Shown here piece after piece: positions 179 through 63,260 of a DNA stretch of 64,000 nucleotides. The notes under the pieces were generated by a model, which ran no database searches, was not told the origin of the DNA, and was given only the letters and a program-made list of their open reading frames with translations. The position numbers were made by a program, and so were the translations under genes. The DNA comes from Branchiostoma lanceolatum (Eukaryota > Chordata > Leptocardii > Amphioxiformes > Branchiostomatidae). Position 1 is the first letter of the stretch. Every line of letters starts with the position of its first letter. Location of the stretch: NCBI RefSeq assembly GCF_035083965.1, contig NC_089724.1:11402910-11466909 (forward strand). Reading direction: 5' to 3'.

Positions 179-2225
179 ATGAACAGCAGGGTCGTTCTCG
201 TTTTGCTGGGGACTCTTGTCGCATCAGGTAAGTATAGAGAAAGTTTGCTGAGTCATATGAAATATTTCTAATGGTTTCCTCCGTGTGTTTGATCTGTACA
301 CACACTCACACTTGCGAAAATGTAAGAAATTTATGCAGAATACTTTAAACGTGTCTAAAGTTGTATCCCTTGTATACCAGGGTACCGCACTCTGCAGGTA
401 TTATCAATATTCCTTTTAAGAATGGCGACGTAATGAAAGAAAATAAGTTTAAGAGGAGAGGAGAAGAAGAAGCCTAAACATTCCATCAACAACGTGGTGA
501 TCTGCCGGCTACTGTAGTCGTAGCTAAGACAACATTTTGAAAACAGGATTTCAGAGTCTGAGGTAGAAGAGAAGTTTACTCCATCACCGTAATGTGATAT
601 TTCATTGTGCTATGTCACACGTCTAACATGAACTCCTCAAACCGCAGGCTCGGCCCTGGTGTGTTACAGTTGTTCCGGTACCGGCGATGCCTGTGTGAAG
701 AATTTCAAGACCATTGCTAACAACACGGAGACCTGTTCCGGCTCTCTGAACACTAGATGTGCCGTAAGTAAATTTTGTTTTCTCAACCGTCGACGTACAG
801 TGAGTTATGAGCTGCATACTGTAATTCTCGTTCGCGTGCGGACCAAAATTTGCCGACCACAGGGGAGGCTCTAATACAGCCCACACATGGGGAGAATAGG
901 GCATAACTATTGGCCTTCTCTTAGCTAGAGGAAGACAAGGTAATCGTCAAATCTACATTGTAATTGTAATATTTAAGATTGTTTTTTTTTCATGGACGCA
1001 ATAATAGCAGTAGGGCAAGAACTGCCAGCTGTAGCCCTACTATCAAATTGTTTTGTAATGGGACAATTCTAGACACTGCTTAATATTCACTTTTTCCCGG
1101 GGGTACTTCAAATTGCACGGTTGGGAAAAATTTCACATTTGTGAAAAGTAGGAAAGGTACTAGAAATTACAAATGCATTTTCTAAGGTGTGGTCCTAGCA
1201 TCTATGATCATCAACTTAACATTGTGCGCGATGGCAACGGCCTAGCAACAGAGACAACATAGACTTTATTACCACACTGTCAACAAAGGGACGTACATGT
1301 ATCTAAATCGCGTTGATTCCAAATAGAACGTAGAACGCCAAAGGCAGATCCGTTCTCTAAACTTGAGTGATACAGGGCTAGCTGAAAAATGGCGAGTATA
1401 TCTCAAGTAGCGAGCTAAAAGAGGGGATGATTTCATTCTTTTTCTGCACAGCATCTTTCTAAATGATTGACAATAATGTCATAGATAACGCATGAAAACG
1501 AACCACGCCTCGCATCTCGCCTTTCTGTTGGTAGGTGACCTCGACAGGTCATTGTGACATGTCATTGTAACACACTCTGCGCATGAGTAGAAGAAGGTTT
1601 GCGTAATAGAGACATTGTGTATGTGACGGGATGCCTTGTCCTGTAAATGACACAGTGTAAGTTTATGAAGGCTAGTCAAACAACACAACTCCTGAGATGA
1701 CCGTATCTCTCTACTTTATGAATATCTGGGTGTAGTAATGACTTTATCTGCAAAAAGCCCAGGGTAGTATATAGAAGTAATGCGAAGACTCTATTCTTTG
1801 ACAGGTCACCTACAGCAAGCTCAGTGGTGACTATGTAACCTTCAGCCGGAGTTGTGCAAGTAGCGTCGGATGCGTCTGCCCGACTATTGGAGGTGAGTCA
1901 TTCTGAAATCTCTCTCTCCCCCAGTCCGGTCTCCTCCATGACCACTAGATTTCCGTATCTCTAGTTTATGAGATTTGATTGAAAGAAACCATGGTATGAT
2001 ATTCTTTTCGGGAAAACGCGGTTATTACAATAAAGACCAGTCGAATTTCTGAAATATGCCCACCAGTCAATGCCAACTGTTGTCATTGCAGACACTGGAG
2101 CCTGTAAGAGATGCTGCAGCACTGACAGGTGCAATACCAGCGGCGCCTCTCCTGCGCAGGCCCAGACCATAGTCGCCCTGCTCGCAGCAGCCGTCTTGTC
2201 GATGCTTGTCGCCGGGAAGCAGTGA
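179..2225 (+). CDS. Ly6/uPAR three-finger protein, probably GPI-anchored (copy 1)
   Basis: Four exons: 179-227, 648-763, 1805-1892 and 2092-2225, all with GT-AG introns (donors GTAAGT, GTAAGT, GTGAGT) and consistent phases 1, 0, 1. The product is about 128 residues. Residues 1-17 form a signal peptide (MNSRVVLVLLGTLVASG). The mature part opens with a CYSC motif and ends with CCSTDRCN, the CCxxxxCN signature that closes a Ly6/uPAR (LU) domain; about a dozen cysteines lie between. A final hydrophobic run (TIVALLAAAVLSMLVAG) preceded by small residues fits a GPI-attachment signal, so the protein is probably tethered outside the cell. The exon layout (signal, first finger, middle, terminal CC motif plus tail) is usual for the family. 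LU proteins act as receptors, receptor modulators or adhesion factors; which role applies here cannot be told. A second, related gene follows on the same strand. Confidence 0.87.
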
Positions 2226-3504
2226 GGCAGCTGATTGGTCAAGAGTAAAACGAATGGTAGGGCGCCAGTCAGTAATTGTCTAATGGACAGGGAATAGTAG
2301 TAAGCTGGCATTCCCAGCGTGCCTTATAAATAGTAGTTAATCCCTACCTAGTCTGTCTCTATACCGCTATAAGTATAGCTCACAATCTCCAGATAGAATG
2401 AACCGATTGATAAAAATACTGAAATATGCTATCCGTAAATTTGATAAGCAGTTATGCTTTTCTGAACAACCCTTTAAACGTCAGAAATAGTCTTTAATCG
2501 TAGATTCGTAGTATATGTATACTTTGCAACTCTGCTTCACATGATCAATGTTTGGAAAACCTATGTAGGCAAATGAGCATGATGCATGAATTCATAAGGT
2601 GTCTGTGTATGCTTTGAGTACGACTGAATGTAACAACTTAACGAGCTGTATCTGAGAGATAAAACTCTCACGCGGTGTGCCGAATCGCTTGTACGTGTCA
2701 TCAAAGATTGACTCATAGAGCGCCAATATCAGTTAGGCTTGTCCTATAGCATGTAAACATATATCACAGATTGTCAGATCCCTGTCCGTGAATTGAAGTC
2801 AGTAATAAAAAGCTTCTCGTGACGCCTCGATCGAGAATGAAAAAAAGAAAGAATTTGTCGTGTCAATCTCTTGTGATATGAGTGAAACACCACTCTGGTA
2901 CAAACTATGTAATTTGTGCGATGGCCCATAGGACGGTGATTAACTGTTACGACCATATCGCTGTTAGTAACGCAAAAGATACAATAGACCTCAGACGAAG
3001 GTCAACATTAAAAATGCAGTAGGGTAGGACCCTATTACGACGGTACCAAATACTTACGTGGTTTATTTTTCCCTATACTGAATGAATAAGTCTGGTGACT
3101 GTGGAAGCTAGTTTTGCGTTGCGTCCAGCATGAATGTGCGTATGTAAGTGAGTCGATCTGTTTCAGTGATACGGACAATCAGCAATACGAGCAATACGGC
3201 AACGGCATATTGCCGCTATTGTTACCTTCTTTGTTCGTCTGGAGGCCATAGGTTTGGCTCCGAGATGGCGTGACAATATCCAATGAACGTTTGATTAACG
3301 AACGCCACTAAAACCGTCTTAACAACTGTTGTAGAATGTTTTGTTAACAGCCACGCCTTAGATAAAAAGACCCATTCAAAAATTGTTTGGGCACGCAAAA
3401 GCACCATTAGGGGCGGAAACCTAAGATAAATCACAAACTGACATTTTGTAAGAATAAAGAAAATACCAAAGCACACACAGATAGAATACCAGCCGACCTA
3501 CAAC
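2226..3504. other. Intergenic spacer between the two Ly6 genes
   Basis: No supported gene. An AATAAA at 2804-2809 could be a distant polyadenylation signal for the upstream gene. No repeat was recognised. Confidence 0.5.
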
Positions 3505-5823
3505 ATGTTCAGTACCAGGGGAGACAGGAGGAGGGACAGAAGGAAGAACACCTCATTAATGTCACGCACAGGTGTCAGCAGAGGAGGCGCTGTGGCCATC
3601 CTATTGATAAGCCTTTTATGCATGGCAGGTGAGTTGACAGGATAATTACATTTACAAACGAGTTGACATTATGGACAAGTACCGTAAAGCGTATATTACC
3701 ACTAAATTTTTAAAGTATAAGAAAATAATAGCGACATCTTAAGTAAAATTCTTTAAGAGTTCATACCATGTACAGCATTTTAGGAATCAACCTTATAAAT
3801 GATGTTATGGACTCAATGGAGGCACTGGCACGTGCAAACTGTTCGTTGTCAAATTTTGGACTTTGGCGGTTAGTTCTGGCAAGACCCAGAATGATGGGCA
3901 TGGAGATTATTTGTACTGTATCATCTTCATGCTGCTTCCACGTAAAGCAATACGTTAATGGTGTTGTTTGTAACATCGGAGTGTGGATCGTTTCGTATTG
4001 GAGAAAACTGAGGACACACCCTGTGTCATCATTATTTGTAGCATTTTCATTTCAAATTGGTCATCGGTGCCTACAACGTTCCAAATGAAAGCCTTTCTTT
4101 CACCTAGAGCTACGTTCTCCCGCTGTATGATCATGGCCAGTTTTAAACATGTGCTTCCATGTGGGCTTACACGGCCTTCATCATAAAAAAGCAAGGTTAA
4201 ATTAAGAATTCAAGCTGACATATGATGTAAATATTCGCCGCTAGTCATTGCATGATCACGCCGCCGGAGTGCTCTTTGATAAATGATAAAAGTCAGCCAA
4301 GCAGAAAATGAGGGCAACAGAATTTTTTTGTTCAATCTGGTAGATGTTTCGTTTGTATAAGAGCGCTGTTCAAGTCTTGAACATGCACCTCCGATTATGC
4401 CTCCAGATCCCACAGACGCACTTCGCTGTTACTCCTGCTCCGGCATTGGGGGCGCTTGCCAGAACAATCCCACAATCCTCCCTGCCAACACCTCTCGGAC
4501 GGACTGCACTTCAGGCCTGGATCGCTGTGCGGTGAGCGTGGTCTAGAGAACTAGTAGCCCAGCGCATGACGTACAATTAGCTAACAGTATCGGTATATAT
4601 ATCCTCCTTGGTACAGTTAACCATTTTGTATTTTTTTGACGCGTATATGTATTTAGACAACAAATTTGGAAACGTTAAGACAACAAATTTCGAAACGATT
4701 GGTTGGAAAATATTTTCTGTTTACCGGAAAATTGCGGCCTCCTACTAATGTTCGTCCCTTTGTATCTGAAACCGTCAGCGTTGATTGTTGGAAATGTCCT
4801 CAAGGTTGCGCCGTGGCAACGGCATTAATAATGTATGTACCGCTCCCAAGTGACAACGAACAATGGCGATTAGTCATTCTGTATGGGCACAGGTACCTTT
4901 ATGGAGAACACATATGTATGCATTCTGAGTGCAAGTAACTATTTATTTTTTAACTTGTGTTCCTTTGAGTGTGTAAATAGAATTGATCGTTTTTCTTGTT
5001 GAAAGATATTCTGAATTACTTGAGTGCCAAGGAGAAACTTACTGAAACATTTTTTTCGTAAACGTACAGACTTCCTATTTTATGGCGGATGGCAACATCA
5101 CAAGTTACAGCCGAAGTTGCGCCCTCTCTACCGGCTGCCGGTGGAAGACGGTTAGTCCGGGAAATCTCTTCTGCACCATATGTCCTCCAGTCAATACATG
5201 TATTCTAACAAATGATGTTGTATGACGTGAACGTAAACGCCCGATTTTATTCTGGCACTTGCTGTAATTCCCACAGGGGGTCTAACTAAGCATGTATTTC
5301 TCAGGGGAAAATTAACAGCATTGTAAGGGAAATACTAAGACTACTTCGTTCCAATACGTTTCTAGACGACGCTGCACGTTTTACTGACGCGTTTGTCAGT
5401 TAGACCACATGCCGGGGTACTAAAAGGTACGATCCAGAGATCCCTTGGTCATAGATAGATATGAGACATAAGGAAAGAGAATCGCGAGTGATCTCGTAAT
5501 GGGCAAATTCATGGACATCGTGCTGTTAAAAGATCTTGAAAATGATGAATTTGCTATCATCGTTCCATTAATATTAGATCAAGCGTTGAGTTATACGATG
5601 CTGTTCAATGTGGTTATCACCAAATAACCCATGGAATGCACCTCAAAAGATGATTATAAACTCGAATGCAAACAACGCCTTTGTGTCGACAGGTACCGGA
5701 GTCTGTGTCCTCTGTTGTAAAGGAGACCTTTGTCTGACAAGTGCAAGTTCGTCTCTCACCGATGTTCCAAGTGCCCCGTGGATCATCTGTCTTGCCTGGT
5801 TCATCTACATTTCTAACGTTTAG
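3505..5823 (+). CDS. Ly6/uPAR three-finger protein (copy 2), splice model uncertain
   Basis: Exons run 3505-3628, 4407 or 4416 to 4531 (two in-frame acceptors), 5070 to about 5154, and 5693-5823. The first exon encodes a basic N-terminus followed by AVAILLISLLCMAG; an internal Met at 3559 may be the true start, giving a more ordinary signal peptide. Exon 2 opens the LU domain with LRCYSCSG, paralleling copy 1. Exon 3 carries SYSRSCALSTGC, against FSRSCASSVGC in copy 1. Exon 4 carries CVLCCKGDLC and a hydrophobic tail fit for a GPI anchor. The closing motif lacks the usual final Asn. The obvious donor at 5151 (GTTAGT) leaves phase 0, while the last exon needs phase 1; a weak GT at 5155 would restore the frame. 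Either a poor donor is used or the gene is decaying. Tandem position and matching layout suggest a local duplication. Confidence 0.72.
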
Positions 5824-21213: not shown

Positions 21214-22466
21214 TATAAAAACAAACCTACACACAATCATATCAAGAATTTAAAAAACAACATATTGATATCTTTTCCTTTCGAATGAAAGCTCATCTGT
21301 GTTGGTAGAATACATAATTGTGCGATTTGAGCTTAACTGAAGGTCGGCGAGATCGACCAAAAATTCATGGTGAGTTTCTTTCTTTGTGTTGGATCAAAGC
21401 TCAAATCGCACAAGTATCTTTTTCTCATGGTCAAAACATTTTCAGTAATATGTCACAGCACGATTGCTACACGTTGAGTGATTCGTTACTAAAAGTTTTA
21501 TCTTCAATGTGCTATTCAATAAAAACACACGTGTATCATATCATTCTTGCAATTTTACACACTTTTGTCTACTTTTGATCGTTCATGTCGCCCGCTTGTC
21601 CTCCAATCATTTATGGCAGACCGTATTTGGGACATATAAAGGGCTAATGTTGCAATCAAATGACTCACTACAAGGTTGGCGGATAAGTGGCCATGTCCGA
21701 GAGGTAGCCTTAATTTGATGTCAGGATACATCACTAAGCTCACCTGTCTTCGTCCCAAGGCTCATGGGAAGTGTAGCGAAGGTTCGTGTCGTTACGGAAG
21801 TTTCCAGTGTTGGAAACTAAATTGCACGACGCCCAATATTCAAATTGAAATACAACATGGTGAATGATCCACATCAATGGGAACTTTTAACCCCATGCCA
21901 ATCATTTTTAACGTCGAAGAGGCTTATATCAAAGTTCATGCAGTGATATCTTTAGTGTCAGCCATTGAGAAGGAATTTGTATGCCCCCTCAGACATTCCG
22001 TCCAAGGCTTCCAAGGTCCAATGCCCCGCGGAAGGCCACAGAGCCATGGCTGGCCTCTTACGTAGGGGGAGGGGGTGTTCAATAATGATTCAAGCATCAG
22101 CAGTAACTTTTACTGGTAAGAAAAGACAAACGCCTTTGGTAGAACACATTGCATTTCTTAATACTGTGCCTGACAACGTCGTGATAAAAGATAGGACGCC
22201 ATCGTATAATTAGTTTTTCTGGTGCAATTGTCACGAAACAAATAAAAAGATTATACCGTTAGTTCTGAATATGTTTGTCGTAGATTTGTCATTTGATGTA
22301 AGAATTATTCAAAAGAGGTTAAAAGACCTCCAGCGGTCCGATAACTGACTCTTATCAAAGTGAAAGGAACGCAAAGTATCCAGTCTGCGTATCTCAGTAC
22401 CCCATGCGCGGTGAAATGATTCAAACTAGACGCGTGCCTCTTTAATTTAGACACACCATACTGAAC

Positions 22467-25165
22467 ATGGACGAGAGTTACTACGATTACAGTTGGTACG
22501 AGCAACTGTTCTTGTTAGAAGATGATCACGAAAGCCATCTTCAGAACCTCTCTATTCCCGCGGTGCCTTTGTCTAACGTTTCTAACAACTCCACTACATT
22601 TGAGGACAGAGACGTTCCTGTCACGGCGAAAGTGATGGTCGGCATCATCTATGTTCTGACGGGAGTCCTGTGTGGGTTCGTGAATCTGGTGCTAGTTTTC
22701 TCTGTGGCGTACTACAAGAAGATGCAGTCGGTGACCAACATTCTGATCGCGAACCTGGCCCTGTCTGACTTTGGTTTAGCTGTCATAAGTTTGCCATTTT
22801 CTCTGGATTATTATATTGTCCACACGCGGCTGTGGCGTCACGGGAAAGCTGCCTGTGCCGCCGTCAACTTCATGCAGATGGCGTCACTCTACGTGTCCAC
22901 ATATTCTCTTGTCGTCATCACCATAGACAGGTAACATTTCAAGTTATTATGTGTTCGGCACATTTGATTCTTTCTGATTCTATGGAAACTCTTCTGCAAA
23001 TCAACTCGTTGATTATACACGTATAATTGCACATTTATAGGAGTTTTTTTTTTGAATATTACGAAAAATCCTATTATCTAAGATGGCTTGAAGATTTGAC
23101 ACAGAATTACACAGGAATGAAAAAAAAAAACCCTGATATCATATGCATCGATTCCCTTACAGACAGTAGATGATAGTGGCCTTGAAAACCGCAATCGCAT
23201 GGTGCAAATGCCAAGATGTAGTTTGTGGGACATAGACATGTACATGTATGTGATACGACGAAGAGAGTGATGTGCTGTCCTTGTGACGATGCTTGTTTTG
23301 GCCTTGGAGATACGAACTTGGCCTTTTCTTGCATTAAGAGCACTGCTAGATTTCCACACGTACACGCGGATTCTATTTACAGTTGAACTAACATCTCCGA
23401 ATGCTGAAGTCGGAGAAATGTTGAATAATGTAAAGTTTCTCAGTCCATAGTAAATTCGCATCCTCTCTTTGAAGGAAATATATTAGTACTTGGACTAAAA
23501 TAATACTAGTGATCCTCCAATGACTCAGATACCTTGTGATCATACACCCCCGCCTTCCGCGAATGAGACGGAAGGGCTTCTGCGCAGTAGCGGGTCTGAC
23601 GTGGATGACGTCAGTGCTCTTGGCTGTTCCCGCGGCGCTGTACTCTCGCGTGATCCCGTACTCGTCACGTGATGGCTCTTACTGCGGGCAGCTGTGGCCA
23701 GTCGGACAGCGTGCGTCGTGAGTAGTAGGAGTAAAAAGTTTGCCTTGCAGGTGGTTCTGGAGAAAGAGAGGCACACATATTTTGAATTCCTGGCGATGAT
23801 TTTGATATAGAATTCAAATAAATTGTTTGACTTCCTGTCCGAGCCATACCTACAGACTTGTTTCATTGACCTTTGGTCTTTGCTTTCCTAGAAGTTTGTA
23901 ACGTTACAGACAGTTGTAGTTTTATCACAAAATTATTCATAGTAAGGCAATTTAGCCTGACCTATTACCTGTAACCATTGTTTGCTTCAAACATTGCAAT
24001 ATACGTCTGGTCGTCTTTGTGTAGTTAGGATCACCTTCTTTGACTCCAAGTGCTCATGTGTCTAAAATTACGTTACCATGTTTGCAGGTACCGGGCTTAC
24101 TACATTGCCGTGTTCGTTGCTGAGTTCGCTCTGCCGGTAGTTGTGATGTGGTACTGCTACCTAAGGATTCTCGTGAGGGTTTGTAACCGCAGAGTTCCGG
24201 GACAACATACCGCGACACAGGTAAGCGGACATGTACTCCTCACGGTACTTTGGTCACGTATTCATTGCAGTAAAGCAAATCAATGGAGATACTGAAAAGA
24301 GCATAAGGTTATCTCTGCAATGTTGGTATTTGAATAAAGAATTGAATTGAATAAGGATGGTCCTTGCGATAGTTTTATGAGTTGCTGTCCATAGCCGTTC
24401 AAAGCTTGAGAATAAGTGCCAGAGACAGACAGACTGGGAGAGACAGAGGCGGGTGGAATATGCCACGAGACAGCTTCTCGGTGAAACTGTACTTGGTGCC
24501 GGAAATTTTCTTGAATTAAAAAGATGATAATAAGACTTCACCCTCAATCTGTAAAAGTTCCTTGGTGCACTTTGTGAAATGTCGAGACTCTCTGCAATCA
24601 GGATGAGGGAACTGTCAGAAGACAGGGCAAGACAAGACATGTACTTTGTAAGGTTAAGACGATGTTGCGTGTGTCTTGCTTGGGGTACAGAATCAAATTT
24701 TGACACATTCAGGTGATTTCTGTCATGATATTCACGTTTCTACATGTCTCCTTATTGTCCATTTGTTCACAGACTGACCAGTTAGCCAGGTCCAGGTTGA
24801 GGACAGTGCGCATGCTCATCTTGTTGACCACGACCCACATGCTGTGCTGGGCTCCGTATCACGTGGTGTCACTCATCCGGGACTTTTATCCTGACCTTCT
24901 CAACAGCTTTCTGTTGAACAACACAACCATGTACATTGCCGAAGGGCTGGCAATGGGCAACAGTATGATGAACACAATTCTATACATTGTGATCAACCCC
25001 AACATCAGGTCTTATCTTAAAGCGGCACCGCGCGACTTCTACCGGTATTGCACCAACAGAAAGGTGAAAGGTAGATCAGTTCGTCGTCCGTTCCGATTGT
25101 CCTCACTGAGCTTGGGCAGCTACAAAGGAAGCAGCAAACGGCAAGCGTCTGTGGAAAGGGCCTAG
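22467..25165 (+). CDS. PROKR: Prokineticin-receptor-like class A GPCR
   Basis: Four coding exons: 22467-22930, 23529-23717, 24088-24220 and 24773-25165. All introns are GT-AG, with phases 2, 2, 0, giving a 392-residue product, close to vertebrate prokineticin receptors. The N-terminus is Tyr/Asp-rich with N-glycosylation sequons near residues 27, 37 and 40. TM1 holds the conserved Asn (GFVNLVLVF) and TM2 holds NLALSD. The extracellular Cys before TM3 is residue 130. The first intron cuts the Arg codon of DRY. The second extracellular loop contains YCGQLWPVGQ, matching FCGQIWPVDQ of prokineticin receptors; TM6 has LCWAPYH, followed by IRDFYP and MGNSMMNTILY, matching VRDFFP and MSNSMINT. TM7 has NPNI in place of NPxxY. 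Vertebrate family members couple prokineticins to Gq-type signalling at the plasma membrane. The gene looks intact. Orthology versus a lancelet-specific paralogue needs a tree. Confidence 0.88.
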
Positions 25166-42716: not shown

Positions 42717-45700
42717 ATGCGGCCTTGCTGCGCTTTGCTAGTCCTCGCTTTCTTCGTCCTTGTACACACCAACCAACTCACCGCTTCTGTAATAAGGAGG
42801 TAAGTTAAGGAAATCCTGTTGCCATACACCTTTCAGAACTTTCTATCCTTTCAGCTCGTCTTGTATACGTAAGCTTAAGACTACTTTGACATTTGCTGCC
42901 ATCACGATTCTTCGACTGACAAAATTCACATGTCATGTTTCAACCTTCAAAATCACCAAAAGCAATTACAGAAACCAAATGTGCTAGGCGTGTTGATACC
43001 TTCACCCGATAAACGGATTTGATCAATCTGTTGTGAATTATACTCAACAGTGAATGCCCCATTACAGTAAGATCATAACATAGATGACTCATTTCAAAGG
43101 GTATTGCGAAACTGCAAGATGTAATGCTATGGGACAGCGTGGGCTATACTTGTTAACACGAGTAAACAGCAATTCCTAGATTTCTTCCATGCGAATAAGC
43201 ATGTTCAATATATTTCCTGTTTTAATACATTTCTCAGGTTCAATATATGTGTACCCAAAGAAGTGTCAACAAAAATGTACTTGCTTCTGAATGAAGGCAA
43301 ATGTCACCATGAGTGTAAGGTGGGCTTGAGTAAATATCAGCGTTGGCTCAAAGAATGGAAGGAGAGATTGTTTTATCGGGTAGTTCAGAAATAGTACTGA
43401 CTAAACAATGTAAATGATGAATGAAGATGGATGAAGGGCCCTTTAGGTCTATCCTTTGTGGACAGTGATAGAAAACATTTGTCCATAGCGTCCATTATCA
43501 ACATCATAGAATTTTGCACTTCACCTACGCATATACGTCACGTCTGTCAACCAACGACATCGTACACCTAGAAGAGTACAGTAGAGTTAGAGATAAAGTG
43601 TACCCGGCACCATGATGGGTAAGGTGTGGGAGAGTTACAGTGATTAATTGCTGTCGTGACAAAAGTTAAACTTTCAGCTTGAAGGGAATGTTTTGTGGAT
43701 GGCTGCTGACTGGTAGTTACGATTTCTCCACAAAAGTGCATACATATCTGTATACACTGGCTTTTCGGTCAAGATATATATACGTAACGTCTACTCATCA
43801 ATAAGTTGCTGGTTATCTCACAATGCCATGTACTGGAAGACTCACAATAATGATGCCACCTGACGAGGCTGACTCCACCGTCCTCTCCATTACACCCATA
43901 AATTCGTCCACCCACATAGACCACGCCGGATGGGAAACAGGCATATCCAGAACAAGTACCACATCAGTATTCTTAGTCTATCCTCGGGTGAACTGCTCAA
44001 GTCCATGTCAAGGAAGGATAATTCGAGATTGGTTTCACATTTTCTAAGGATAAAAATACTATGATGTTGGCTTTAGAATGGCAAGGCGTGATTTATGAGA
44101 CAGATTTGTGACGTTCATACAATATGCTATGGCAAGACTCCTCGACGAATCTGGCATCTCATCAATGATGATTCCATTGTAGGTCCACATGGACTCAACA
44201 CTAGTCTCTTACAACCAACATATCATACATCATTGGATACGTTGGTGGGAGTTGCATTTAGACGTGATGCTGTAAAGTGGTTCAGAGCACAATACTGTAT
44301 GCTATTTGACGCACTGATTCCAGATTACTCACCACTAATCCATAGTTTTAAATCTTATTTGTCAAAAGCGGGCACAATTCAACATCTCGACTGTCTGATA
44401 TTGAATGATCTATCTCTTTTCATTGACAAAATACCACCAAAAAATTACAAGGGGCACAAGTCCAAGAACATAGTGGTAGATTCTACATTAGCTGAGGTAT
44501 TAGCGACTACGCAAGTCGACCATGCAGCGCATCCATTTGGACAAAATCCTACACGCGTCAGTCCCGAAGTGGGGGAGAACTCGTCACGAATCATCGAACA
44601 AAAGTGCCACATAAGTGCCTCTCTATCCCATACATACTGTAAAAGCCTGTTCTCTAGGAACATTTTAAGAATACCATAAAACCTTTTATGTTAGAATGCT
44701 GCGGAGAAAATAAAACCCTTTTATGTTCGACTGTAAGTCTCGGCAAGGTCATAGAAAGACACAGACCACGGTTGACATCACCCTCCGCCTCTTAAGTTCG
44801 CAAAGGGCTTTGATCTGACTGTGGCTTGTTACAGGTGGTATTCAGAAGAATTACCATGAATGGACAATAAAGCATTTTGTCTGCCAAGGCTGGCGAAGAT
44901 GTATAGTGGCACCTTGGCGCCCTGCAAATCAAAACAACAATGACGAAAAAAGCTAAACGTGGATGAACAAAAACAAGACATTTCACAAAAATGATATGAT
45001 AACAGTTCGATGACAGATCCGTACCACCAATGTAGGATGTGGATGTTATTATACGTGTACTTGGTATATAACAATGCTTTGGTAAGATAAAAAAAGATAG
45101 CATCCTCAACACTCAAATCTACATGAGATCTTCCAGCTCAAACTATTTGAAAAGCCTAGCTAATAGTGAATCCAAATCAAGTATTAGCTGACAGCCTGTA
45201 GTGTTCCTGCTGCAGCTTGCTTTTTTGACTGCTAGAGCTGTTTTCACCAACACGACTATCCTCCGCCTCAGGTACGATGACGACATCTATGACTACGATG
45301 GCGACGTGGAGCCGCTGTTGGCGCTGCTGGGGCAGCAGGCGGGCAGGGTGTACCACGGGCTGACCAGAGAGCTGCTGGACAACATAGAGGAAGACACGGA
45401 CAGACAGGACAACAGGTCTGCGTTTGGCAGCGGTTCGTCAGTTCAGAGAGAAAGGATATTAGTTGACAATTTGAAGATCGCTTAACCAAGCAAAGAGATG
45501 TAAATAACGCGATATTTCAGCCAAATGTAAAACGTACCAAATTTGGAATCATAGAACATTAAAAAGATGTGCAAGCCTCATATGTGTTTTGATGGCTGGA
45601 GTTGCCGCGAATGCTTCATACAACAGGCTGGAGAAAGTCATAAAGTAGCGTGTAGAGAACAGAAAGGCTATAATTCAGACTCGAGTGGTTTATGGGAAAG

Positions 45701-46641
45701 GTTATACGTTTGACTGAGGATGTGATGTCGTCCTAAAAGCTTTGATATAGCACAACCAATTCCCCATGAACATGTTTACATCAGCCATCCCAATGGTTTC
45801 TACTGGATGTTACATTTGTACATACAGGACGACCTTGACTACATAAAAACATGATGTACTATGAAAATACCACTTTGCTTGAGGCAAGGGTTGTGTAAAG
45901 TAGTTTATGATACAATAGGACATGCTTAGTGTTGTATGGCACGCATTTGGAATGTACTTTGTTTGGGTGATTATTCGTCACGGTTAAGAAACCCAAACAG
46001 ATAACATAGCAGATATATTGAGCGGACTAAACCGTTGACCCAACCATCATCTTTTGTGCCGCAGTCATCCCTCAGTATCTAAGGAATTGCCAAAATTGAG
46101 GAGAGACTGCGGTGCGAGACAAGGTGGTCGACTTGAGGGATCAGTCCGCTCTGAAAAAGCATTCCCTGATAACGCTTCACATGGATCAGCAAACCAAATG
46201 CCATGCCATATGATGAGTTTTAAGAGAGTTTCTTACGTTTATGTCGTTTCTGGTAGTACTCTTTTAAAGACATTTTACAGCTTTTGCCAGTCCGTATATA
46301 TCATCAGTATTTGTTTTCTTCTGAGGACCGAATTGCCAAAGCTAACGATATTTCTAGAACATGATGTTTGGCCTTCACTAATTTGCAACGTAATTGTCTG
46401 AATGTCGGAGTGTTCATCAATACCTCTGCCCTGTAGATTCTCACGCAACTACGAGGACATGATTGGGCCCATGGCCATGAGAGTGCGGAGAAAGTGCGAG
46501 GCAGCCACCTGTGCACAGATGCACCTGGGAGACCGACTGCGGCTCCTGGGCACCGGCATGTTCACCAACACCGGTCCCGAGAGTCCCGGCCGCAAGAAAC
46601 GTTCCCTGGGAGCTTCACGCCGCTCAGCGAGCCGCCTGTAG
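42717..46641 (+). CDS. CTFP: Calcitonin-family peptide precursor B
   Basis: Three coding exons: 42717-42799, 45272-45415 and 46437-46641, both introns in phase 2. Exon 1 encodes a signal peptide (MRPCCALLVLAFFVLVHT); its acceptor at 42701 implies an upstream non-coding exon. Exon 2 encodes an acidic, leucine-rich propeptide (YDDDIYDYDGDVEPLL) ending at a weak donor, GTCTGC. Exon 3 encodes RVRR, then KCEAATCAQMHLGDRLRLL, then FTNTGPESP-G-RKKR. Cleavage after RVRR and amidation at the Gly give a 32-residue peptide with a Cys2-Cys7 ring and amidated Pro32, the same length and C-terminus as vertebrate calcitonin. The CxxxxC spacing and the arginine-leucine-rich helix fit the calcitonin/CGRP family, secreted and acting on class B receptors. 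After the stop, a possible splice (GTTAAG/GTAATA to an acceptor at 46936) could remove part of the 3' UTR. Complete precursor; function inferred from family. Confidence 0.92.
44095..44679 (+). other. 194-codon open frame in an intron of gene B, unrecognised
   Basis: An uninterrupted plus-strand frame within the intron between the signal and propeptide exons of calcitonin-type gene B. It contains YHTSLDTLVGVAFRRDAVKW and a leucine-rich middle (CLILNDLSLFIDKIPP). No signal peptide, membrane segment, zinc motif or known catalytic motif is visible. A shorter frame at 43823-44047 precedes it in another phase. It could be a remnant of a transposon-encoded protein, a nested gene or a chance frame. 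Confidence 0.25.
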
Positions 46642-49669: not shown

Positions 49670-52600
49670 TTAGAGTTTACTTCTTGCTTCAGGTCTGTCT
49701 ATGTTTTTCCTCAAAAAGCCCAGAATCTTGGACCAGGAGTCCTCTTGAGCAGTAGCGTGTCCTTTTGGTTCCCCACCAGCATATACGTAAACACCTGCAA
49801 CATGACGGAGATTATGGGGGTTTATTTTCATTTTCTCTTCTAGTTATTCAACATACTTCATTTAGCCCTTCTGGGCAAGAATGTTGTCATTGTCTTCACT
49901 AGATACAACCACTAATATTGACTACTAAGAAACTGATTTTTGCTTTGTCATACCTTTTTTAGTTTGTATTGTCCAACACGCATGTAGAGGGGTAGGACCT
50001 GATTATTCTTCCAACATTACTTGCAAAACGTCGGCTTGGCAGGCCGGCACGCGGCGCAGCAGTGGCTGGTTATATCTAACTCAATGACCTGTCACACCTA
50101 GCCTTTGCACATCTGACTGCAAGTGTTCTTTAAAACTATCTAGTGAGGATGCTCCTACAGTATTTGATGACAATGAGTTCCATTCTATTATAGTTGTCAG
50201 AAAATACAAATTTTTAAACACATCAATCCTACCCCTAGGTTGGTATTCAAGTCAACCTTTAGGCCTGATCATCAGCTCGATCCAAATACATGTCTTTTGA
50301 CTCTATCTACACATCCCTGTGGTGCAAGCAGTCACCTGAACCACACTGCTTAGCCACATAGAGATCAAATCCGTGTATCCAGGGGGTGGGGTTTGATTCC
50401 CACTTGAGCACATGTGAGGGGTTCTATTTGTCACTTGAGGGAGCTTCAGGAGTTAGCCTCTGGCATTTATCCTCTGCATGCAAAATAACCATGTGTTCTT
50501 GACAAAAAACATGAGCTGTAGCAAAGCAACAAGTTGCGCTACAAGCTGACATACAATAGGATAACTGTTCGAGGTCATACCAAAGTGACTATCAAAATTG
50601 TAACACATTTCAGTTAAATATCAGTGTTGCTTACGGAAGGCCCCATGGAAGTAGAAGCCACAGTGAGGGGTGTACGGTGGCTCGATCAGGTGACCTGTCC
50701 CAGGGTACTTCAGCAGGGTGTAGTTAGTCTTCCCATGGGCCTTCATTCTATCAATGGCCTGCAGGGTAGATATAGTCATTATCTCCCTGAGGAGGATGGC
50801 AGACAGTCCACCAAAACATCAGCAGATAAATCCACACTGGTTGTGTCCAAAAGCAACTCTATCAAAGTCAGGATCTACAACAACTTACCTTGTTGGCATG
50901 GAAGACAGATGGAATGTTGATGTCGTCTTCCCCTGCCACAAACAGGATGGGGCAATGAGATTTCTCCACCTAAAACAGTGAACAACAACATACTACTATC
51001 ATAATAGCAAACATGCATGCATGATTGGTAACATATGGACATATGGAGTATCTCTAGATATACATGCGGAATGCATCCTAGACGACACACAGTCAAGAGA
51101 CTGGCAAAATGACCTGGAAGAGACAGTCATGCGGGACTGAGAAGAGTTGTGTTACACCTGAAAGAGAGTGATAAAGCATAAAAGCATAAGCACTGGATAG
51201 AAGAGAATGGCAGGCCGTGGTGGTTCACATAGGCACTAGAGAACAATTTCTTAGTATTCAGTAAGCAGTAATCCAGAAAAAGAGAAACAGAAGTCATTTC
51301 TGACCTGAATGCAGGCATGAATCCCGGGTTCTGTAGTGATGTCCTCCAGTTGGTTTTCTACATTTGCGAATCTATCTTCAGTGAACACGATCTGATCTGC
51401 CATCCACCTGCACATGGTAAATAAACAATGGCTCATCTCTGTCTGCAGTATTGCTATACATCTTAATGAACTACAAAAAGACTCCATAACAGAACCCAGA
51501 AAAAAACGTCAATTCTAAGCTTAAACTTGATTTCCACCTATCTGTAAGTGCAGCTATATTTTCCAAGAATGGGAGTTCTTTTTCCTGGAGCTCTATCCCA
51601 TATTCCCCTACAGTTTTTCCACATGTAGAACAGGCAACTCGAAAGTAGATTTGAAAAAAAAAAATTCCTTCAGGCTTTTAACAAAAGACATGTTACAGGG
51701 TGTTTGCACTCATATGACATGAACTTTGACATTGAGTATTGTCCTCCATGCTCGATGACTAAACCTGGAAGTTGCCAATAAATTTGAATGTTATTACTGT
51801 GAAGTAATTTTGATAATACCATGCAGATTAGTCTCATTCTTCCAGGTTGAACCAACCAATATGGTGGCTGTATGGTCACTGCAAAGAGTTGTAAGAGACC
51901 TCAAGTATGCTAAGAGTTACATTTCTTTCCATCACAATGTCTGAATTCAAATACTTATATAACAAGAACTAACAAGAACTGTGTTTTAATCTTTTTGGAC
52001 ATAGCCCAAACAAGAACTAAGGCCAGCATACAAAACATTAAAAAGCTTTGCAAATAAAGCAGTCAAATCTGTCCAAGAAGACCACTCAGGTGACCAGCTA
52101 TAATCTGGTCTATGTGGACAGGTGGTTACTATAGACAGGATTCTTTATTCTTATATCAATGGCCGGGACAAATCAATGGACCAATGAAAGTGTTTACATT
52201 GGCCAGGTGTTCCTTATGTACAGGTAGGTCACTAGTGCAGGTCTGACTGTAATCTGAAAATCAGATAAAAAGAATGAAATTAACAGACAGCAAACAGAGT
52301 TGTTCTATGATAGTGCTGAGGATGGACAAACAGCCTGAGTAAAGTATGAAGGATTACAAACACTCTCACCAGGTGGGAGGAACAAAGCCCCCCGTAGACG
52401 ACCTTCCTTCAACGGTATCCTCTTGACGCCTTTCCCGAGGTACCATCTTTCCAGACGTGTTGTCACCAGCACTGCAGGGTTCTGTTGCTCCATCACGTCT
52501 AAGTGTCCGTCATGCACACTTAGGTCTACCAGGAACGGTGTTGAGACGTCTTTCTTCCTGAGACGGAGTCCAGGTTTCTGACCAGGTGAGGGCTGCATGC

Positions 52601-54012
52601 TCCAGAACAGACCCATCTGATCAACACCTGTACACGACCAAGGGGAGATTTTGTGCATCATCTCAAGTTAGTCAAGACATATAATACTTTGATACAGACC
52701 AAAGATGCTCCTAACATGCACGCTGTACGCTGGGACGCCATGATAGTGCAAAGAAATTATATCTTATTGACATATAGGAACACGGCCTTTGCCATAAAAC
52801 ATTGCAAAAAAATACCTTTATACAGCCCTCCCAGCGAAGGCTGTTTGGCCACAACAACCCTTCCCATGTCATCAGCCCTGTAGTGTGCGTATGACTGGAA
52901 GCGGGTGGTACCCTCCACCAGCCGTGCATGTAAGGTGACCGGTTGTCTGGGAGCCAGTCTCTCCACGGTGATGTCCACCTTGTCATCAACCAGGGCTTTG
53001 GCTGGAGTCACCAACAGCTGCACCTGGCTGCTCAGTTTTCTATAAAAAAAAACAATGACAAATTGGAGGCATTTTCTAAAGAATGGCATGTTGGATTTTT
53101 GGTGAGCTACAAAGGCATTATCTTTTCAAATATACCCAAAGATTATTTGAATCTGAAACGAATCTGTAACTCTATTTGTGCTGATCAGCTCAGGCCAAAC
53201 CCTCATGCATAGCTTTCGAGCCCAGGAAGGGTAGCCTGCTGAGGTAGCCCACCCCACTAGCCTAGCCCACCTTTTCCAGATATCCCTGATCAACTCCATG
53301 CATAACTGTTAAATGACTACAATTATGCAACTTTGGGATTAAGACACCATGCTTAAATCAAGTTATACAGGTAGCGTTACACCGTGTTTTAATAAGTGTA
53401 GCCTGGATATTTTCTTCTCTATAAATCACAATATTCATTAAGCATAGTGGCACCAATGAGAAAACTTAATCAATAATGTATGCATAAATGTATATAATAT
53501 CATAGTAGCCTACTAGTACTGTGGTCTACTATTTTAATGTAAGCGCAAATACGCAATCCCATAGTCGCCACTTACACAGCTAGCGATATTAATGTAACAC
53601 CGTTTAGTATATATATCCGTCAACGTTACGTAATGACATTTGTTACCGCCATTGTTCTGACCCTGAGAAACAGCCATATCTTATGTTGTTGTTGTTGTCC
53701 TTGCTTCAAGTTCAACGTCTATTTCATCGCTAGACGTGGTCTCTTAATAGCTTAGCTTGGTGCTGGGTTTCACTTGATTCAGTTACGAGTCAACTGCTTT
53801 ATGCATATGTAAACTGGATGTGAAGGTCCAAAATGGATGTAAAGCATCCTACCTGACTGTAGACTCTACTCTACTCTACTCATTATACATAGTGGATTTT
53901 TGTGTGACTACCAGGTGGAAAAATAGACACTAAACAGGGACGACAACAACAACAACAACATGTACATATTGAGACACCTTTACCTGTATTGCATTCTGGC
54001 CATATGAAGCAT
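49670..54012 (-). CDS. ACOT: Peroxisomal type I acyl-CoA thioesterase (BAAT/ACOT family), catalytic exon not found
   Basis: Minus-strand exons: 54012-53984 (start, MLHMARMQY), 53039-52816, 52627-52370, 51407-51305, 50969-50889, 50758-50635 and 49794-49670. The first three join in phase (2, then 1) and give the N-terminal thioesterase/bile-acid transferase domain: [33 protein letters not shown] and LRGALFLPP. The last four also join in phase and give ILFVAGEDD (acidic-residue region), [10 protein letters not shown] (catalytic His), AGGEPKGHA and a terminal Ser-Lys-Leu, a type 1 peroxisomal signal. Such enzymes hydrolyse acyl-CoAs to free acid and CoA. Between 52369 and 51408 about 100 residues are expected, including the nucleophile elbow (GxSxG-like), but no coding stretch is visible. 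The flanking phases (1 and 2) also do not match. Either an exon was lost, making a pseudogene, or the assembly or allele lacks it. Confidence 0.85.
50081..50239 (-). mobile_element. LINE 3' end of ORF2, inside a thioesterase intron
   Basis: The minus-strand frame reads [20 protein letters not shown], then LDSFKEHLQ and a stop. This pattern (FF.RTI.EWN....SLDSFK) closes the reverse-transcriptase ORF of many CR1/Jockey-like LINEs. A GC-richer 3' stretch follows to about 49975. Confidence 0.65.
53203..53300 (+). repeat. Dispersed repeat, copy 1
   Basis: Contains GGGTAGCCTGCTGAGGTAGC and CCCACCCCACTAGC, matching 55773-55872 in the same orientation. The family is unknown. Confidence 0.65.
53684..53961. 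mobile_element. MITE-like element with (GTT)n inverted ends
   Basis: The left end reads TGTTGTTGTTGTTGTCCTTG and continues to GTCTATT. The right end, in reverse complement, reads TTGTTGTTGTTGTTGTCGTC and continues to GTCTATT. The ends are thus inverted copies. The element lies only about 20 bases downstream of the thioesterase start exon, in its first intron. Confidence 0.55.
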
Positions 54013-56781: not shown

Positions 56782-58063
56782 TCAGCGTCGGCCACTCATG
56801 AGCAGCTCGTTGGAGTTGATAGGGTTGGGTCCACGTGCAGTGGAGTAGTACTGGTTCAGTCGGTCTAGTACCGTTCCCACAAGCCCAGTACTTAGTCTGG
56901 CATCTGAGAAAATAAAAGTTAGTCAGCTATCGGCACCAAACAAAAGGTAGTGTTGTTTTTTTCCTTCAAGTTAGTCATCCAGCGTGTACGAAGGTTTTCA
57001 TGTTTTTTGTTATCAACGGTTAATCGCTCGCTCACGGCTTCAAACATCACACTTCAATAAGTTAAACGTTGGCTGTTAACGTGGATATTCATGATGTCCG
57101 ACTGACATGTGTCACGATCACGCTAAAGGGCGGCTTTACCAGTGGGATATATAGGGCTGACACCATATGAAAATGGTATAGTTAATAAAACTGGAAAGAA
57201 AAAAGGTGGTTAACCAGCTCAAATTTCTTATTTAATATTGCAAACAAATAGCCTGGGTGCCATCCTAATTTCTACCGGGGCTCCTACACTCGCTACCCTC
57301 GGGTAGCGAGTGTAGGAGCCCCTGTAGAAATTAGGATGGCACCCAGGCTAGCAAACAAAGCCTACTTTTGACCTCAATTACTGCTATCCATCCGCGCTGT
57401 GAATACAAGACAACAGATCTCTCCTTACGTCAAAACAAACGGTGAACTGAACAAATTATCGTTGACCCTACATGTTCCGTCTAACATAGAAAAAGTCTCC
57501 AATGCCAAACTGGACCAACATTTTCAAGAAATTTTAGAAAAGAAATATTGTGAAGGAAGTCAAGCAGGCACTACAATCTTGCAAAGCAACTGTGACGTCT
57601 GCCCTATACAGAAGTAAGTAGATACTACTATATATACAGTCAATATGACGTCATTTGCAACACGTTGGATTACAGTGTAGGTCTGTTTAAGCGCCAAAAT
57701 GCTGCTGCTGTAATCCAATTAACCGCCAATATGGTCGCCGAGGATTTAAAGTATAATTGCAAACCGTTATGACGTCAATGAAAAGCATCGATTTCGAATC
57801 TGTAAGACCCGTAGCTCACCACCTGTCCGTTTGTCGAACCCCTCCGTTTCGTCCCTGCTGGTGTCGTAGAACTTTCTCCGGATGAGACTTCTGATCTCAT
57901 CCACGCTGTAGCGGGTATCGCCCTCGGTCTTCCTGATGCCGTGGTCCTGTGGGCCGTTACCGAGGTCCAGGAGAACGGTCCGGCAGCTCGTGACGTCAGC
58001 ATACAGCAGCAAGATGGCCGATAGGACCAGGATGCACTGTGGCGATTGGAACAGTTGCTTCAT
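56782..58063 (-). CDS. Precursor of a 39-residue amidated peptide, family unresolved
   Basis: Two minus-strand coding exons: 58063-57820 and 56903-56782, joined in phase 1 (donor GTGAGC; a second GT three bases earlier is also in phase). A good acceptor (TTTTCTGCAG) just before the ATG implies an upstream non-coding exon. Residues 1-27 form a signal peptide (hydrophobic core CILVLSAILLLYADVTSC). A charged propeptide (RYSVDEIRSLIRRKFYDTSR) ends at a Lys-Arg site. The predicted hormone starts TGDARLSTGLVGTVL, has an amphipathic middle (DRLNQYY) and ends NELLMS-G-RR, so the C-terminus would be Ser-amide. It has no cysteines. Length, helix and amide suggest a class B GPCR ligand: the C-terminus faintly recalls CRF/urocortin (xNxxLMxxxG) and the N-terminus faintly recalls secretin/GHRH (xxDAxxT). 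Neither match is strong. The gene looks intact. Confidence 0.75.
57249..57350. mobile_element. Palindromic MITE with 9-bp target-site duplication
   Basis: An almost perfect inverted repeat with arms of about 50 bases, from TAGCCTGGGTGCCATCC to its complement, and almost no loop. It is flanked on both sides by GCAAACAAA (57240-57248 and 57351-57359). It lies in the intron of the amidated-peptide precursor gene. A 9-bp duplication suits Mutator-like mobilisation; 8 bp (hAT) is also possible. Confidence 0.88.
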
Positions 58064-61719: not shown

Positions 61720-63260
61720 GCACTGTCTGTATAAACCCCGAGGATTAAATTGAGTCTTCCGCATATTGGGAAACTTTAATTTCGGGGCCATACATCATTA
61801 GTCCCTTTATAGTTCTGTTAGACCTAATTTTCCTAGCTAATAATTCTACACATAATATAAACAAGTGTGGTGAGAGCGGACATCCCTGGCGAACACCACG
61901 GGATAACGGAAAAGGGGTTCAAATAAACCCATTATTTATCACTTTGCTTGTAATATTCCTATAAAGGACGGAACTTCATAAACGATACAACAAATCCAAA
62001 ATACTTCAAGGTTTTTAGCATGTAGTCCCATCTAAGCTTGTCAAACGCTTTTTCAAAATCAGCTTTAAAAATCATTCCGGATCCGGGTATATTTTTGTTA
62101 TCATAGTATTGAATTATTTCAAGAATTTGAGGGATATTTCCTCCAATAAATCTATTCTTTAAGAACCCACTTGGATCTTTATCAATCAAATCACCAATTA
62201 CATTTCTTATGCTAAGTAACATAACTTTTGACAAAATGAGTACATCACAGCACAATAGCGATAACGGACGCCAGTTGGTAAGAAAGGTCGGATCTTTATA
62301 CTGGCCGTCTTCATTTTGTTTTTAGCAATAAAGTAAGAAGTCTTTCTCTCTGTGATCCAGATAACTCGCCTTTTTCATATGCATTGTGATTGTGCTTGAG
62401 GCATCTGTTCCGTCTACAATACGGTTTTGGATTTCTTTGCGTTTTCTTGAGACGAATGTAATCACATGTCCCAGGAAACAACATTTAAACGTATCCCATA
62501 TTGTCATCGGGTGAATTGAGCCATTGTTGAATTCATCTATAAACCTTTCGGTAGTATCAATGAATGTTTTGTCTTTCAGAAGTGATTGGTTAAATTTCCA
62601 AGAATATTTGCCGCGAGAGAAGTTTGCAGTTTGAATTGAGATAGAAATAAAGCTATGGTCTGATTTGAATCTACTTGCAATTTTTGCACTCGAAACAAGA
62701 ATAGGAAGCGGGAAAAGACCAAAAAGTAGTCCATACGACTGGCTTGTTGTCGTCTCCGCCATGTAAATCTTGCTGTCTCTGCATGTTTAAAACTCCAAAC
62801 ATCAACCAAGTCAGGTGCTGCTGACATTTCGGAAATTCTTTGTTGGGTACGTGGATTGTAGGTTCTCGGGTTACTGCCCGCCCTGTCAAGTCTAACATTT
62901 CGTACTGTATCAAAATTCCCTACAAGAATAATGTTGTCTCGACCGTCTCCCAAGTTTTTAATTGAATTTTCTACGTCATCAAAGAAAGTCGGACTGTCAG
63001 AATTCGGAGCATTCACATTTGCTCAGATACAGAACCTTGACTCATTTATGGTGATATCAACTGTTAACAGACGACCAGTCATATCCTTTTCAAAGTTATG
63101 GACATTATATTTCACCTTTTATTAAAAAATGTCATAACCCCTTTCTTATCACTTTCCCCATGGTTGAAAATGATAGAACCTCCCCATTCCTTAGCCCACA
63201 ACTCCTTGTCTTTAGGAGTTGAGTGTGTTTCTTGCATGCATATTTTGTCAAGGATTGTTA
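61720..63260 (-). mobile_element. Defective L1/Tx1-type LINE
   Basis: Minus-strand order: an endonuclease start (KICMQETHSTPKDKELW, about 63250-63140), endonuclease end motifs (FTWRRRQQASRMDYFLVF), a linker, then reverse-transcriptase motifs NWRPLSLL, GFLKNRFIGGNI and FEKAFDKLRWDYML. Further on come GVRQGCPLSPHLFIL and QYAEDS, where the usual YADD is YAED. Frame breaks, an internal deletion near 62300 and the missing C-terminal part and 3' UTR show it is dead. Endonuclease plus this reverse transcriptase fits the L1/Tx1 group. Confidence 0.85.

Follow-up and report, generated by a model that had tools for sequence, protein, structure and literature searches.

A putative amidated peptide hormone gene beside calcitonin-family genes of a lancelet, and its possible action on class B1 receptors

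In short peptide hormones, sequence likeness fades quickly, which leaves few tracers of their origin; gene neighbourhood and exon layout are two of them. The gene described here, located on the minus strand of a 64-kb stretch of lancelet DNA (the window, i.e., the whole stretch that was analysed), raises the question of which hormone family its product belongs to, and it can help to test whether neighbouring genes gave rise to the calcitonin-type and PTH-type ligands. On the sequence, we consider the chances evenly balanced that it encodes a secreted amidated peptide hormone acting most likely on a class B1 receptor. The type of peptide is itself ordinary; its genomic context is what makes the origin of class B1 ligands open to testing.

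The coding sequence extends from an ATG at 58063-58061 to a stop codon at 56782-56784, and these coordinates are exact. Coding exon 1 (57820..58063) carries the leader, the propeptide, a Lys-Arg cleavage site (57827..57832, read from the translation), the first two mature residues (T and G), and one base of the codon that follows. A phase-1 GT...AG intron of 916 nt (56904..57819) separates it from coding exon 2 (56782..56903), which contains the remaining mature peptide, a Gly-Arg-Arg amidation and cleavage signal (56785..56793, also read from the translation), and the stop. The predicted signal peptide (57986..58063) was called from hydrophobicity alone, by its hydrophobic core and otherwise by eye, and its cleavage point after ~26 residues is approximate. 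With the higher-scoring donor, after 57820, the precursor has 121 residues and the mature peptide 39; a weaker alternative donor after 57823 gives a precursor of 120 and a peptide of 38 residues. Scored with simple consensus tables, the donor was among the best 1.2% of GT dinucleotides on the minus strand, and the acceptor was among the best 0.9% of AG dinucleotides there. The GC content was 0.58 in exon 1 and 0.55 in exon 2 vs. 0.41 in both the intron and the window, and the third-codon GC was 0.70, a figure that takes in the stop and one codon past it.

Both strands of the window were searched for a structure consisting of a signal, one intron, a dibasic site, and G[KR][KR]-stop, and the only candidate was this gene. 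The same structure was held by 1 of 40 Markov-3 null windows (0.025 per window); since the thresholds were fixed after the gene had been seen, this rarity should be read as a guide rather than as a strict p-value. Because of the exon GC, third-position GC, splice-site ranks, and rarity of the structure, we take the gene, as far as can be judged from its letters, to be almost certainly a real peptide precursor. The initial annotation had predicted a clean two-exon gene with a signal peptide, Lys-Arg, Gly-Arg-Arg, and a 39-residue Ser-amide product, which was borne out by the exact coordinates, splice sites, GC content, and rarity search. Its reading of the gene as an amidated neuropeptide precursor is upheld by the gene structure and by the cleavage and amidation motifs; an N-terminal signal, a dibasic site, and a C-terminal Gly with basic residues, the general features of amidated neuropeptide and peptide hormone precursors, are all present.

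Three copies of the CRE palindrome TGACGTCA occur within ~350 bp at the gene (57646, 57770, and 57991; span 57646..57998), the first two intronic and the third within exon 1. The window contains seven such palindromes, and 20 Markov-2 null windows averaged 1.75. The trio would suit cAMP-driven expression of the peptide gene. Also in the intron, at 57249-57350, there is a 50-nt near-perfect inverted repeat with a 2-nt spacer and arms that are 98% complementary, which looks like a small mobile-element hairpin.

Judging by the motifs, the leader would direct the precursor to the secretory pathway, and a prohormone convertase would cleave it after Lys-Arg; trimming of the C-terminal Arg-Arg and conversion of the Gly to an amide would then give the predicted product TGDARLSTGLVGTVLDRLNQYYSTARGPNPINSNELLMS-NH2. 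This peptide has 39 residues and no Cys, and it ends in NELLMS-amide, i.e., in a Ser-amide. It may be released from neural or gut endocrine cells and would raise cAMP through a G-protein-coupled receptor that most likely belongs to class B1; this class is suggested by the size of the peptide, the helix predicted for it, and the calcitonin-family genes near its own gene. A single-sequence AlphaFold2 model (no alignment) of the 37-residue peptide of exon 2 had a mean pLDDT of 74.1, with block means of 87 and 89 across the first 20 residues. It predicted a helix at residues 2-23 and, beyond it, a loose tail in which residues 31-34 form a second, short helix. The predicted shape is an amphipathic helix over approximately the first two thirds of the peptide, then a Gly-Pro-Asn-Pro break and a short tail. 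The peak helical moment was 0.46; salmon calcitonin reached 0.47 and CRF 0.57. A central alpha helix, as seen in this model, belongs to the features of calcitonin/CGRP peptides but is not family-specific. The Gly-Pro-Asn-Pro break is unusual in a class B1 ligand binding as a single long helix, and class A receptors, too, accept peptides of similar length.

Two calcitonin/CGRP-family genes were found in the window. CT-A on the plus strand (exons 42717-42799, 45272-45415, and 46437-46641) and CT-B on the minus strand (exons 8959-8871, 8476-8336, and 7788-7626) both have phase-2 introns, a Cx4C ring, and a Pro-amide. They scored 25.3 and 31.7 bits, respectively, with Pfam PF00214 (cut-off 22.3); their splice joins were set by us, and the CT-B join in the Pfam test was short of two residues. 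The CT-A peptide has 31 residues (after Arg-Arg-Lys) and the CT-B peptide 33. The peptide gene lies ~10 kb beyond CT-A, with a BAAT/acyl-CoA thioesterase-like gene between them (50624-53125, minus strand; Pfam BAAT_C and Bile_Hydr_Trans in two separate open frames). A third calcitonin-type exon was looked for as a Cys pair before G[KR][KR] and rejected: among six rows with this pattern, four were not calcitonin-type by eye, and the two remaining were CT-A and CT-B. In B. floridae, three genes, Bf-CTFP1-3 (BAU51800-51802), are reported in tandem on one scaffold as the author's unpublished data, with peptides of 31, 33, and 33 residues, all with a Pro-amide and an N-terminal ring (PMC6283891), whereas another source states a single calcitonin-type precursor gene for this species (PMC6002491). 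The two genes in our window are consistent with the former description rather than with the latter. Probably, CT-A and CT-B either belong to Bf-CTFP1-3 or are orthologous to two of these genes, and the window is very probably a lancelet calcitonin-family cluster, since the lengths of the two peptides fit the description.

Profile searches against known families, which the initial annotation had proposed as a check, gave no match in Pfam or NCBIfam. In Pfam, neither the precursor nor the mature peptide gave a family at E up to 10, a range in which the HMMER filters remove most matches above ~0.1. The mature peptide also had 0 matches among PDB sequences at E up to 10. PF00473 (CRF/urocortin/DH44) matched control sequences (CRF, UCN3, and Manduca DH) and did not match here; the same negative result was obtained with PF00123 (secretin/PACAP/glucagon) and, for the precursor, with PF00214, with which CT-A and CT-B are above the cut-off. 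Among HMMs built from eight small sets, seven were between -2.7 and 0.4 bits (one unreported), and the NPY-family HMM was the highest, with 5.5 bits and 14 of 5000 shuffles as good.

A family score was calculated as the summed local alignment against six families, with 2000 shuffles. For the peptide, it gave p = 0.40 with CRF, 0.52 with secretin, 0.41 with PTH, 0.048 with calcitonin, 0.023 with NPY, and 0.098 with DH31. Control peptides were mostly recovered in their own families, with p = 0.0005 and 0.001 for two insect DH44 peptides (CRF) and 0.0005 each for the CT-A and CT-B peptides (calcitonin), tick DH31 (DH31), and GLP-2 (secretin). TIP39 was recovered weakly in PTH (0.0135), and an adrenomedullin fragment was missed in calcitonin (0.12). 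Values of 0.02-0.1 mean little, because controls also gave false low values, namely orexin-B in secretin (0.001), TIP39 in NPY (0.002), and CT-B and GLP-2 in PTH (0.0145 and 0.017). A weak likeness to CRF/urocortin and to secretin/GHRH, split between the two ends of the peptide, had been noted before; the weakness was confirmed, but the support for either family dissolved, both p-values being at the level of shuffles. Membership in the CRF family (p = 0.40, no PF00473 match) and in the secretin family (p = 0.52, no PF00123 match) was rejected by these tests. A PDF-type reading and kinship of the propeptide to CT-A, CT-B, human CALCA, or PTH were also rejected, as the likeness was at the chance level.

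When 30 peptides were compared singly, human calcitonin was the best match (p = 0.0007), with LST-x-x-x-GT ungapped against its LSTCMLGT, and PYY was the second (p = 0.0023). In the same pairwise comparison, salmon calcitonin gave p = 0.07, the neighbouring lancelet CT peptides 0.64 and 0.71, and CGRP/IAPP 0.99 and 0.63. The best local scores were p = 0.0035 for NPY and 0.0097 for calcitonin. With registers that were fixed once the alignments had been inspected, the same columns matched for calcitonin (p = 0.0015) and for DH31 (p = 0.0045), and CGRP/IAPP and CRF gave p = 0.0075 and 0.0085 at other registers. An extended test took in lancelet, CGRP, IAPP, and Ciona members and left out the Cys columns. 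The best calcitonin register then shifted (p = 0.047; 1 of 29 control peptides as high), DH31 gave p = 0.07 (4 of 29 as high), and CRF gave p = 0.043 as the best over 11 offsets, with five of the 29 controls as high, three of them true members. We treat these single resemblances in the letters as hints, not as family assignments.

Calcitonin-, PTH-, and CRF-type readings are all sub-readings of the class B1 proposal. In the first of them, the peptide would be a strongly diverged, Cys-less member of the calcitonin/DH31 superfamily, an extra copy in the tandem cluster that acts on the calcitonin-type receptor or on its RAMP complexes, which is conceivable but rather unlikely. The closeness of CT-A, the presence of CT-B in the same window, and the three tandem genes of B. 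floridae (unpublished data of the author of PMC6283891) are in line with it, as are the ungapped match to human calcitonin, the common columns of the calcitonin and DH31 registers, and the predicted single helix with a loose tail; however, human calcitonin was the best pick from 30 peptides tried, salmon calcitonin, CGRP/IAPP, and the neighbours themselves were not alike, the family scores were 0.048 and 0.098, and the best register moved once the Cys columns were dropped from the extended set. The peptide has neither the N-terminal Cys pair nor the Pro-amide in which calcitonin/CGRP members end, CGRPs excepted (PMC12638048, PMC6002491), and PF00214, which finds both neighbours, does not find it. 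Like Bf-CTFP1-3, it is amidated and has a central helix (predicted here), and two genes fitting the Bf-CTFP description are in the window; unlike them (ring, Pro-amide, 31-33 residues; PMC6283891), it is Cys-less, has a Ser-amide, and is 39 residues long. One phase-1 intron interrupts its gene vs. two phase-2 introns in CT-A and CT-B. The absence of Cys is common to the peptide and insect DH31, together with D3, L6, S7, G9, and G12 in an alignment that starts for both at the residue following Lys-Arg, but the peptide does not end in Gly-Pro-amide, is eight residues longer, and has no significant family score with DH31. The gene may instead encode a lancelet PTH-type ligand, or one among them, beside calcitonin genes as in vertebrates, where PTH is linked with CALCA, PTHLH with IAPP, and PTH2 with ADM5. 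We consider this improbable: although the peptide is 39 residues long, as is TIP39, no sequence likeness to PTH, PTH-L, or TIP39 was detected (p = 0.41, in a test that is weak even for TIP39), and the peptide is amidated, which PTH peptides are not known to be. The exon layout of the gene is nearly that of Xenopus and chicken PTH, where one coding exon carries the prepro part and the following one the mature part (PMC3009671), except that the intron here falls two codons inside the mature part. In vertebrates, ARNTL and BTBD10 are among the genes that neighbour PTH (PMC3009671). PTH-like peptides are cited from amphioxi (PMC4354418, PMC5640766), with low homology to vertebrate PTH (PMC4354418).

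Less probable still is a lancelet CRF/CRH-type peptide, perhaps from the one CRH-like gene on record for B. floridae (PMC7406891; GI:260786674 in PMC4772807). In common with CRF/urocortin/DH44, the peptide has LS near its N-end and SN..LM near its C-end, ungapped at the vertebrate CRF spacing (fixed-offset p = 0.0085; 0.043 as the best over 11 offsets), but the family score (0.40 vs. 0.0005 and 0.001 for the insect DH44 peptides) and PF00473 give no support, the peptide ends in a Ser-amide, and its helix is broken by Gly-Pro-Asn-Pro. In addition, the gene has two coding exons vs. one in the CRF-type precursors described from vertebrates and Ciona (PMC7406891). Outside class B1, there is a substantial possibility, if short of an even one, that the gene encodes an unrelated peptide hormone, e.g., a class A ligand, located near calcitonin genes by chance. 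The Gly-Pro-Asn-Pro break, class A ligands of like length, and the rankings of PYY and the NPY HMM speak against the class B1 part of our proposal in the same way, and the intron pattern differs from that of the calcitonin neighbours. NPY-family peptides have the C-end R-x-R-F/Y amide. This end is absent here (NELLMS-amide), and the low NPY values (PYY 0.0023, local 0.0035, 14/5000 for the HMM, and family score 0.023) are matched by decoys, with non-members scoring alike (TIP39 against NPY 0.002; orexin-B against secretin 0.001); an NPY-type peptide was rejected on these grounds. Chance closeness of a neuropeptide gene would presumably also be uncommon.

On balance, we lean slightly toward a class B1 ligand. 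The proposal of a class B1-acting amidated hormone is based on the gene structure, composition, rarity, predicted helix, helical moment, the two calcitonin/CGRP genes, and the three CRE palindromes; against it are the lack of a profile or PDB match and a sequence and intron phases unlike those of the calcitonin neighbours. The initial annotation had suggested a divergent class B ligand or an undescribed family. Its argument from CRF/secretin likeness has fallen away, and the class B1 case now draws on two observations absent from that first reading, the calcitonin genes in the window (cf. PMC6283891) and the near-PTH exon layout (cf. PMC3009671). By these tests alone, the peptide is not placed in a family. 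The lancelet CRH- and PTH-like precursors in print were compared by description, not by letters, and the peptide may be identical to one of them; a PACAP/glucagon-type precursor is also described in B. floridae (PMC7251081). A literature search by words, covering running text, did not find the peptide.

With an extra gene for a Cys-less amidated peptide at the calcitonin cluster, there is a specific candidate that can be assayed as a ligand of lancelet class B1 receptors. We tentatively propose, as an unlikely but informative case, that class B1 ligand genes survive in the lancelet cluster as a relict tandem array, in which this gene encodes a Cys-less calcitonin-type peptide, the chordate counterpart of protostome DH31, or is a pre-vertebrate PTH-type gene next to calcitonin genes. 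If true, calcitonin-type and PTH-type families arose or stayed adjacent before the vertebrate genome doublings.

Several other features were observed in the window. A class A peptide-type G-protein-coupled receptor gene with several exons is located at 22446-25165 on the plus strand; Pfam 7tm_1 was obtained for the first of them, and the best PDB matches, with a query joined from fragments, were the prolactin-releasing peptide receptor and tachykinin receptors. Open frames at 2034-4551 (plus strand) resemble by eye a Ly6/CD59-type GPI-anchored protein (Pfam CD59, E 0.14), and those at 61959-63022 (minus strand) resemble, also by eye, a LINE reverse transcriptase.
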